Of a DNA stretch of 64,000 nucleotides, positions 57,894 through 59,907 are shown one piece after another. Origin of the DNA: Kiloniellaceae bacterium (lineage in GTDB: Bacteria; Pseudomonadota; Alphaproteobacteria; Kiloniellales; J153); NCBI GenBank assembly GCA_021776095.1, contig JAJFGO010000021.1, positions 1 to 64,000 of the forward strand. Direction: 5' to 3'. Position numbers and translations under genes: made by a program. Position 1 is the stretch's first letter, and every line of letters begins with the position of its first letter. Under the pieces are notes generated by a model. That model was not told where the DNA came from. It made no database searches and saw only the letters and a list, made by a program, of their open reading frames with translations.

Positions 57894-59096
57894 TCACGCC
57901 TCCAACGCGCGCGCGAGGTCGTCCTTGATGTCCTCGACGTCCTCAAGTCCCACGGAGATGCGGACCATGCCGTCGGTGATGCCGACCCGCGCGCGTTCCT
58001 CGGCGCCCAGGCGCTGGTGGGTGGTGGTGGCGGGGTGGGTCGCGAGGCTTTTGGAATCGCCCAGGTTGTTGGCAATATCGATCACCTTGAGCGCGTTGAG
58101 CAGGCGGAAGGCGCGCGCCTTGCCGCCCTCGACCTCGAGGGTGACGATGGTGCTGCCGCTGCCGCTCATCTGGCGCCGCGCGAGGTCCGCCTGCGGGTGG
58201 CTGTCGAGCCCGGGGTAGAGGACCCGGCTGACGCCCGACCGTCCTTCGAGGAATTCGGCCAGGGCCTGCGCGTTGCGGCAGTGGCGCTCGACCCTGAGAT
58301 CGAGCGTCTCCAGACCCTTGAGCAGGAGCCAGGCGTTGAAGGGGCTCATGGAGGGGCCGGTGTGGCGCACGAAGCCCTGCAGGTGGTCCTTGAAGAAGGC
58401 ACTTGAGCACAGGACCGCGCCGCCCAGGGTGCGGCCCTGTCCGTCGATGTGCTTGGTCGTGGAATAGACCACCACGTCGGCGCCGAAATGCAGGGGCCGT
58501 TGCAGCATCGGGGTCGCGAAGACGTTGTCGACGACGACGCGCGCGCCGGCGGCATGGGCCATTTCCGACACGGCGGCCAGGTCGATGATCTCCAGCGTCG
58601 GGTTGGAGGGCGTCTCCAGAAACACGCAGGCCGTGGGCTTCGACAAGGCCGCCGCCCAGGCGTCCAAATCGGTGCCGTCGACGAAGAGCGTCTCGATGCC
58701 ATAGCGCGGCAGCAACTCGGCAACGATGAAATGGCACGAGCCGAAGAGCGCGCGCGAGGCGACCACCCGGTCGCCGGCGCGAAGCTGACACAGCAGCGCG
58801 GCGAAGACGGCGGCCATGCCGGTCGCCGTCGACTGGCAATGCTCGGCGCCTTCCAGCAGGCGCAGGCGCTCCTCGAACATGGTCACGGTCGGGTTGGCGT
58901 AGCGCGAATACTGATAGCGCGACAGATCGCCCTTGAAGGCGGCCTCGGCCTCCTCGGCCGAGGGATAGACATAACCCGACGTGAGGAACAGGGCCTCGCA
59001 GGTCTCGTCGAAGGGGCTGCGGGTCAGGCCGCCGCGCACCAGTTGGGTCTGCGGGCGCAACCCGGCTTGGCCGGTCTCGTGTGTGCTGTCTGGCAT
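57894..59096 (-). CDS. metZ: O-succinylhomoserine sulfhydrylase
   Basis: A 400-residue Cys/Met-metabolism PLP enzyme. The PLP-binding lysine is K215 in YSTTKHIDGQGR, with RYQYSRYANPT near the N-terminus, VFLETPSNPTLE and the phosphate-contact SATGM-type STATGMAAVFAAL. It uses sulfide and O-succinylhomoserine to make homocysteine for methionine synthesis. It starts 37 bp after the rhodanese stop on the same strand, so both probably share one transcript. The ATG at 59096 is preferred with GAGG upstream; an in-frame ATG lies 9 bp earlier. Confidence 0.93.
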   Translation of the reverse strand: MPDSTHETGQAGLRPQTQLVRGGLTRSPFDETCEALFLTSGYVYPSAEEAEAAFKGDLSRYQYSRYANPTVTMFEERLRLLEGAEHCQSTATGMAAVFAALLCQLRAGDRVVASRALFGSCHFIVAELLPRYGIETLFVDGTDLDAWAAALSKPTACVFLETPSNPTLEIIDLAAVSEMAHAAGARVVVDNVFATPMLQRPLHFGADVVVYSTTKHIDGQGRTLGGAVLCSSAFFKDHLQGFVRHTGPSMSPFNAWLLLKGLETLDLRVERHCRNAQALAEFLEGRSGVSRVLYPGLDSHPQADLARRQMSGSGSTIVTLEVEGGKARAFRLLNALKVIDIANNLGDSKSLATHPATTTHQRLGAEERARVGITDGMVRISVGLEDVEDIKDDLARALEA

Positions 59097-59133
59097 GATC
59101 GTCATCCTCGAATTTTCGGCGGCGCGGCGGCCG

Positions 59134-59562
59134 TCAACCTTGGCGCCAGGGCAAGGTCGCGGCTTTCCAGCCTTCGACCGCGCCCCGGTGGCCGTCACCG
59201 TCGTGCGGTCCCTCGAAGCCATCGGTCACGTTGTAACAGGCACTGTAGCCCTGGGCGGTGAGCGCCAGGGCCGCGTGGTGCGAGCGCTGACCGGAGCGGC
59301 ACAGCAGCAGGACCGGGTCGCCGGGCGATACCCCGGCCTTGGCGACCTCGTGGACGAAGCGATCGTTGACCTGCATGTCGGGGTAGGCTTGCCAGGAGAT
59401 CGGCACCACGCGCTTGTTCAGGGCCGATAGGTCGGGCACCCCGACAAAGCCCCATTCCGGCTGGGTACGCACGTCGATCAGAACTGCCTTGGGCTCGCGT
59501 TCCAGCATCTCCCAGGCCTCGCGCGAGGTGACCTCGCCCGCGTAACCGGCACCGTTCGCCAT
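59134..59562 (-). CDS. Single-domain rhodanese sulfurtransferase
   Basis: A 142-residue rhodanese. The domain shows VLIDVRTQPEWGFVGVP at the N-terminus and the active-site loop CRSGQRS with the sulfur-carrying cysteine. Rhodaneses move sulfane sulfur to thiol acceptors. Lying directly before metZ in one apparent operon, it may supply or detoxify sulfide for homocysteine formation. The start MANGAGYAGE has GGGAGAG just upstream; the longer frame enters the leader hairpins. Confidence 0.92.
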   Translation of the reverse strand: MANGAGYAGEVTSREAWEMLEREPKAVLIDVRTQPEWGFVGVPDLSALNKRVVPISWQAYPDMQVNDRFVHEVAKAGVSPGDPVLLLCRSGQRSHHAALALTAQGYSACYNVTDGFEGPHDGDGHRGAVEGWKAATLPWRQG

Positions 59563-59609
59563 GACTCTCTCCCTCTCCGGCGCGCCGGATAACCATCCCG
59601 TGCGCGCAC

Positions 59610-59690
59610 AAAAAAACCGCCGCGGCTTCAAGCCGGGCGGATCAATCCGCTCGCTTTAGCCGCATTTTTAAAGCGCCCGCAAGCTAAGCA
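59610..59690 (-). promoter_or_regulatory. Attenuator-like 5' leader of rhodanese-metZ (terminator plus competing hairpin)
   Basis: On the minus-strand transcript a hairpin of about 10-11 bp (59617-59640: CCGCC pairs with GGCGG, inner GGCT with AGCC) is followed directly by seven U (59610-59616), an intrinsic terminator 48 bp before the rhodanese start. A second hairpin, GCGGAT-CA-ATCCGC at 59637-59650, uses the same bases as the terminator's 5' arm, so the two exclude each other. Further upstream CGCTTT (59652-59657) pairs with AAAGCG (59670-59675). No minus-strand gene lies close enough upstream to need this terminator. A riboswitch or other attenuation device for methionine/sulfur control is likely; no known class could be assigned. 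Confidence 0.65.
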
Positions 59691-59820
59691 TCAAATCGGC
59701 GCTACCATCAGGCAACACTACATGGGCGAGGCTGTCAAGGGGGCAGTGGGTCGGGCTTTGGGGGCAATCGCATTTGGCGGCGGCCATACCGAGGGAAGCT
59801 CTGGATCGAAGTGGGGCGCG

Positions 59821-59907
59821 CTTTCGTCCTTCGACAAGCTCAGGATGAGGAAAATCGGGTGTGGCATTGAGAATGGCCCTCATCCTGAGCTTGTCGAAGG
59901 ACGAAAG
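59821..59907. repeat. Perfect 30-bp inverted repeat (REP-like intergenic element)
   Basis: The 30 bases at 59821-59850 are exactly complementary to 59878-59907, with a 27-nt loop. The core TCCTTCGACAAGCTCAGGAT is a sequence often seen between genes in alphaproteobacterial genomes. It lies between the divergent rhodanese leader and the DUF1272 gene. Such elements can block exonucleases or terminate transcription; it is probably mobile or amplified by a RAYT-type mechanism, though no transposase is nearby. Confidence 0.75.

Follow-up and report, generated by a model that had tools for sequence, protein, structure and literature searches.

The 5' leader of a rhodanese-metZ operon, on the minus strand of the window (the whole 64,000-nt stretch of a Kiloniellaceae contig that was analysed), can be read with high confidence as a SAM-II riboswitch that turns rhodanese-metZ off at the level of transcription. 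Most likely it is an ordinary, slightly diverged SAM-II aptamer with a terminator as its expression platform, scoring just below the database threshold, and not a new class. The homology to SAM-II, the promoter element, the covariation of helix P2a and the competing helices were established by computation. The operon and its leader comprise the following features, given in window coordinates.

59733-59738, minus strand: -35 element TTGACA, identified by eye, with a 17-nt spacer to TTGCCT (59715-59710)
59635-59712, minus strand: match to RF00521 (SAM_alpha, the SAM-II aptamer), 35.3 bits, E 1.8e-6
59672-59703, minus strand: P1 hairpin, AGCGCC (59703-59698) with GGCGCU (59677-59672), 6 pairs
59692-59697, minus strand: GAUUUG, third strand of the predicted SAM pocket; UUUG invariant, and G and A at least 90% conserved, in 43 aligned leaders
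59686-59690, minus strand: P2a 5' strand UGCUU, all 5 positions paired in the window with 59652-59648, with covariation
59679-59682, minus strand: P2b 5' strand UUGC, invariant in 43 aligned leaders
59648-59660, minus strand: P2 3' strand GCUAAAGCGAGCG, comprising the pocket strand GCUAAA (59660-59655) and the P2a 3' strand GAGCG (59652-59648)
59622-59663, minus strand: antiterminator, GCGGCU/AGCCGC, AAGC with bases of GGCUU (59634-59630) and GCGGA/UCCGC; -24.4 kcal/mol
59637-59650, minus strand: second hairpin GCGGA-UUGA-UCCGC, the tip of the antiterminator, from folding
59610-59640, minus strand: intrinsic terminator, stem 59640-59617 and U7 59616-59610; -17.2 kcal/mol
59134-59562, minus strand: first gene, rhodanese-domain protein of 142 aa (Pfam PF00581, E 7.3e-10)
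57894-59096, minus strand: metZ, O-succinylhomoserine sulfhydrylase (TIGR01325, PF01053)

Leader sample and match to SAM-II

Related leaders were collected from an order-wide RF00521 search. Seven of its 90 matches were not fetched (G039, G042, G044, G045, G046, G048 and G049) and two were added from a family search, giving 85 leaders, 57 of which were of the window's type. Of these, 43 were aligned; the 14 omitted had a terminator that was absent, longer, shifted or otherwise placed, and their omission biases the alignment towards the terminator.

In an E-value search of 59500-59900, minus-strand positions 59712-59635 matched positions 1-79 of the 79 in the RF00521 model, with a score of 35.3 bits, where the gathering score is 36; the same match had an E-value of 5.3e-6 in the genome-wide search. 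As it falls 0.7 bits short, a default Rfam scan misses it, and the scan of the whole window at gathering scores returned zero matches. In three further genomes of the genus, the leader of this operon scored 36.0, 36.1 and 36.7 bits, each time passing the gathering score. Folding of the 161-nt leader was better than that of its own shuffles (z -2.39; 1 of 200 shuffles as good). The original prediction had proposed comparison with several Rfam models: SAM-II did match, below its gathering score, and SAM-V, SAM/SAH and SAH, like SAM-I/IV and the long-loop form of SAM-II (RF01726), were absent from the six matches listed for 59500-59900 at E <= 10, which included no riboswitch family besides RF00521.

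That prediction had likened CCGGCUUGAAGCCGC (59636-59622) to SAM-II and considered the downstream pairing region of the class to be missing. The segment in fact belongs to the terminator; the aptamer lies upstream of it, at 59703-59648, and the pairing region is present as the P2 3' strand at 59660-59648. The interval proposed at the time, 59563-59690, holds the hairpins and ends about 13 nt short on the upstream side, so that it misses the 5' arm of P1 and GAUUUG.

Two of the five P2a pairs of the window are G-U. By our reading the P2a register appears to be that of the SAM_alpha consensus, in which CGGCC and GGCCG stand opposite each other over a 3-by-3 inner region. Residues of the pocket strands have been named as the SAM site (PMC11508383, PMC6061858, in the portions available), and in our own mapping these would correspond to GAUUUG, UUGC and GCUAAA of the window.

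Promoter and transcription start

Of the 57 window-type leaders, 48 carry TTGAC at a distance of 35-41 nt upstream of P1, and a single other TTGAC occurred across the upstream stretches (about 60 nt). The conserved -35 element would place the transcription start at the first base of P1 or close to it, at about 59703, and argues against a start site downstream of the hairpins. A promoter a few nucleotides before P1 is likewise described for SAM-II in the accessible text of Corbino 2005 (PMC1273637).

Upstream of the promoter, at 59830-59898, the window carries a near-perfect inverted repeat around TTCGACAAGCTCAGGATGA, with weak miRNA-like matches. It may be a dispersed hairpin repeat; within the window, its 19-base core was found just in its own two arms.

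Terminator and antiterminator

The GC-rich stem with seven U noted earlier in the 5' untranslated region of rhodanese-metZ was confirmed, the stem being CCGCCCGGCUUGAAGCCGCGGCGG with one bulged C (59640-59617), followed on the minus strand by UUUUUUU at 59616-59610. This terminator (59640-59610) was missed by a simple terminator scan, presumably because of the bulge. The second stem, described as sharing an arm with the first, is also present (59650-59637); its 3' arm overlaps the 5' arm of the terminator, so the two hairpins are mutually exclusive. It proved to be part of a larger antiterminator (59663-59622), which is built from the pocket strand GCUAAA together with the 3' strand of P2a and takes both inner arms of the terminator.

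When the upstream strand was shuffled 100 times, the -24.4 kcal/mol of the window antiterminator was never reached. With the helices as drawn, P1 plus antiterminator amounted to -30.4 kcal/mol versus -26.8 kcal/mol for P1 plus terminator, and when the P2 strands were held the pair probability of the terminator was 0.997. The full-length ensemble without ligand was mixed (antiterminator 0.44, terminator 0.55). Its minimum-energy structure contained the terminator, together with upstream pairing in which P1 is lost; for the shorter transcripts of 84 and 86 nt, in which the terminator is still incomplete, the lowest energy belonged to P1 plus antiterminator. Given the mixed full-length ensemble, read-through at low SAM must depend on the order of folding during transcription.

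In 41 of the 43 aligned leaders, all but L081 and L083, the antiterminator was more stable than the terminator, with 5.3 kcal/mol as the median difference. No more than 5 of 100 upstream-strand shuffles reached the antiterminator in 33 of the 43.

Conservation and covariation

Three leaders of the window's type (L063, L107 and L129) deviated in one pocket strand, and the other 54 of the 57 had all three strands intact; GCUAAA was invariant across the 43 aligned leaders. For P2a, 71 of 105 positions paired over 21 distinct strand pairs from these 43, as against 57.5 +/- 3.6 when the 3' strands were dealt randomly and 37-53 of 105 at registers slid by 1-3. One of 10000 shuffles reached 71, a significance that is overstated, as in the shuffle tests of the bound structure and the antiterminator, in that relatedness among leaders is ignored. 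The outermost P2a pair was open in 22 of the 34 leaders having letters on both sides. P2b was 100% paired, each of the 42 distinct leaders having all three pairs.

P1 had 98.0% of cells paired over the 42 distinct leaders, and five of its six pairs never vary within the subtype; within the subtype P1 is too conserved to covary and hence carries little information. Across subtypes it is changed on both sides, from GCGCC/GGCGC in the window's to CGUGG/CCACG in the canonical and CGCGG/CCGCG in a second kind (below).

Taken together, P1, P2 and the terminator had 91.5% of cells paired, versus 33.7-55.0% at slid registers, and 9 of their 23 pairs were changed on both sides versus 4.3 in shuffles, 0 of 500 of which reached 9; the terminator by itself had 92.1% of cells paired. 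The antiterminator had 84.5% paired against 25.7-51.2% when slid, with 23 double-changed cells versus 10.6 in shuffles. Its pairs changed on both sides (4 versus 3.5 shuffled; 256/500) and its pair types (13 versus 13.2; 349/500) showed no excess. The covariation proposed as a check on related leaders was thus seen for P2a and the terminator, and in part for the antiterminator.

Proposed mechanism and alternative readings

The steps that we infer, from the transcription start through SAM binding to termination and the direction of control, would run as follows. At low SAM, strand GCGGCUAAAGCGAGCGGA would pair with the segment that emerges next, UCCGC...GGCUU...AGCCGC; the antiterminator would consume both inner terminator arms, and polymerase would enter rhodanese and metZ. 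At high SAM, the ligand would be bound between GAUUUG, UUGC and GCUAAA, fixing the P2 pseudoknot; P2 would keep the strand needed by the antiterminator, so that the terminator and its U7 would form and the operon would be off. Shut-off of the operon when SAM is abundant would probably be explained in this way. At the level of sequence, the RF00521 match and the competing helices support what the original prediction had proposed, a transcription-attenuating riboswitch leader before rhodanese-metZ.

A terminator that acts constitutively, or hairpins unrelated to any ligand control, would be in keeping with the energy of the hairpin, which is strong at -17.2 kcal/mol; with an aptamer match and its covarying P2a preceding that hairpin, and with antiterminator complementarity recurring across the order, we regard this as extremely improbable. 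Attenuation through a leader peptide, in which ribosomes on a short open reading frame would choose the hairpin according to the supply of methionine-tRNA, could draw on an ATG at 59691 that opens the 7-codon frame MLSLRAL inside the aptamer. This ATG was present in just 10 of 43 aligned leaders, the peptides have no Met beyond the start, and the P2a pairing accounts for the stretch; the leader peptide was rejected and has next to no probability. Hardly any weight can be given, either, to another SAM or SAH class (SAM-V, SAM/SAH, SAH or SAM-I/IV) or to a new class, despite a SAM-V core that is very similar according to the available text of PMC6061858: the six matches listed at E <= 10 in the search of 59500-59900 included no riboswitch other than RF00521. 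The new class, which had been put forward as a possibility, was rejected on the match over all 79 model positions and the P2a covariation.

An aptamer that has diverged to bind another ligand (SAH, homocysteine, methionine or another sulfur metabolite) within a retained SAM-II fold is very unlikely. It could account for just 14 of 57 subtype leaders passing the Rfam cut-off and for P1 and P2a letters that differ from canonical SAM-II. The pocket strands are nevertheless intact in nearly all leaders of the type, known kinds of SAM-II targets are among the downstream genes, and the differences lie in helices, not in the strands reported, in what is available of PMC11508383 and PMC6061858, to hold SAM, as we map them. 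A wider reading would make the leader part of the order's own diverged SAM-II subtype with a shifted ligand range (e.g. SAH or another sulfur metabolite), existing in two forms, one terminating and one near the start codon, and running a sulfur-assimilation regulon of rhodanese-metZ, metY, cysH, cysG, sulfonate uptake and OsmC. We give this proposal as a whole very little chance; the gene context of the sampled loci supports the regulon in it. The SAM-II OFF switch stays the preferred reading of the window leader.

Gene context and occurrence

SAM-II elements stand before genes of methionine or SAM synthesis, mostly in alphaproteobacteria, and the window leader precedes such a gene, metZ. The start of metZ is likely at 59096, which was our choice; in-frame ATGs also occur at 59105 and 59222, and the frame from 59222 scored 585.9 bits with TIGR01325 against a cut-off of 510.05. 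It is plausible, from the enzyme families, that the rhodanese supplies reduced sulfur to MetZ. Using tblastn of the two window proteins over the fetched stretches, the order leader, rhodanese, metZ was found in 11 loci, the window included, among the 85 fetched leaders. Among the candidates listed from a public genome set, 0 of 11 rhodanese relatives, all with alphaproteobacterial titles, had SAM_alpha before the rhodanese; metZ was nearby in 2 of 11, in one of the two in convergent order. In that one, a MAG titled Rhodospirillales (L130:3737-3816), a 64.4-bit SAM_alpha precedes the metZ that is convergent with the rhodanese gene.

RF00521 matched at E <= 0.01 in 8 of 9 genomes of the family, the own genome included, and in 0 of 14 controls. 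Across the order, 52 of 61 genomes had a match at E <= 0.001 and 28 of 61 a passing one, in a search whose stricter filters lost some weak matches; the gathering score was reached by 29 of these 90 matches and, within the window's subtype, by 14 of 57 fetched leaders. The Rfam SAM-II cut-off hence misses much of one alphaproteobacterial order. The own genome had three further matches of strength comparable to that of the window leader, one passing (C73:37323, 42.5 bits) and two under the cut-off (C73:36223, 33.2 bits; C117:24614, 33.0 bits).

SAM-II-like leaders of a second kind were seen on the minus strand of contig C73 (L050:2624-2698 and L050:1524-1598), directly before cysH and cysG (siroheme synthase), with a P1 of CGUGG or CGCGG and, ahead of the start codon, no visible terminator with a U run. 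In relatives, leaders of this kind precede cysG (L065, L093) and cysH (L104). By eye, GCUCC faces GGAGC near the start codon in these leaders, which suggests translational control. All 7 second-kind loci scanned matched RF00521, two of them also RF01726; a reading as SAM-V was rejected, no SAM-V match being listed at E <= 0.5 for the 7 loci. The product of cysG uses SAM as methyl donor. SAM-II before cysG and cysH would take the class beyond methionine synthesis, into sulfate assimilation.

On contig C117 of the own genome (L051:315-504), an OsmC-family gene is preceded by a tandem: an aptamer of the window's type with terminator, then a second SAM-II-like core. In a pattern search, 28 of 57 window-type leaders had such a second core after the first (loci among L051-L128), and several double-core leaders precede metY-type genes (family shown for L071, others by similar sequence). 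Window-type aptamers also stand before substrate-binding genes of aliphatic-sulfonate transporters, in L067 (SsuA family shown) and in L069 and L090 (by similar sequence only). An osmC gene downstream of SAM riboswitches is described for Pelagibacter in the accessible part of PMC5069961.

Comparison with known SAM-II systems

What is presented here is mildly new: a subtype common in the order and yet mostly below threshold, the rhodanese-metZ target, and cysG and cysH leaders in the same genome. Full-text searches of the literature gave no paper combining SAM-II, riboswitch and rhodanese, and none combining SAM-II, riboswitch and siroheme; for SAM-II riboswitch and cysH they gave one Pelagibacter paper.

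The metA element of Agrobacterium (Corbino 2005, PMC1273637, as far as its text was available) shares with the window leader the P1 and P2 pseudoknot, the conserved pocket strands, a promoter before P1 and methionine-synthesis genes downstream. A terminator between P2 and the open reading frame is likewise found in many SAM-II members of that paper, in which the class is described with OFF control. The window leader differs in P1 (GCGCC/GGCGC), in the two G-U pairs of P2a, in scoring just below the cut-off and in the rhodanese that intervenes between leader and metZ. The SAM-II of Sinorhizobium meliloti metZ, with its sRNA RZ (Scheuer 2022, PMC9373788), also stands before metZ, and SAM binding is predicted there to terminate transcription; it belongs to another lineage, and rhodanese has no mention in the main text of that paper.

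Tandem SAM-II riboswitches are known from 44 examples, besides SAM-II/SAM-V tandems (PMC9481103, from partial text); they resemble the double cores of the relatives, whereas the window leader is single. Magnetospirillum is among the 2005 SAM-II examples according to a figure legend of PMC1273637. The survey of about 200 genomes by Leyn 2014 (PMC4239095, in the text available) reports SAM_alpha from Rhizobiales and Rhodobacterales alone and gives metY as core target. The same family stands before methionine genes in those regulons and here; unlike there, the leaders described here come from the order of the source genome and have cysG and cysH among their targets.
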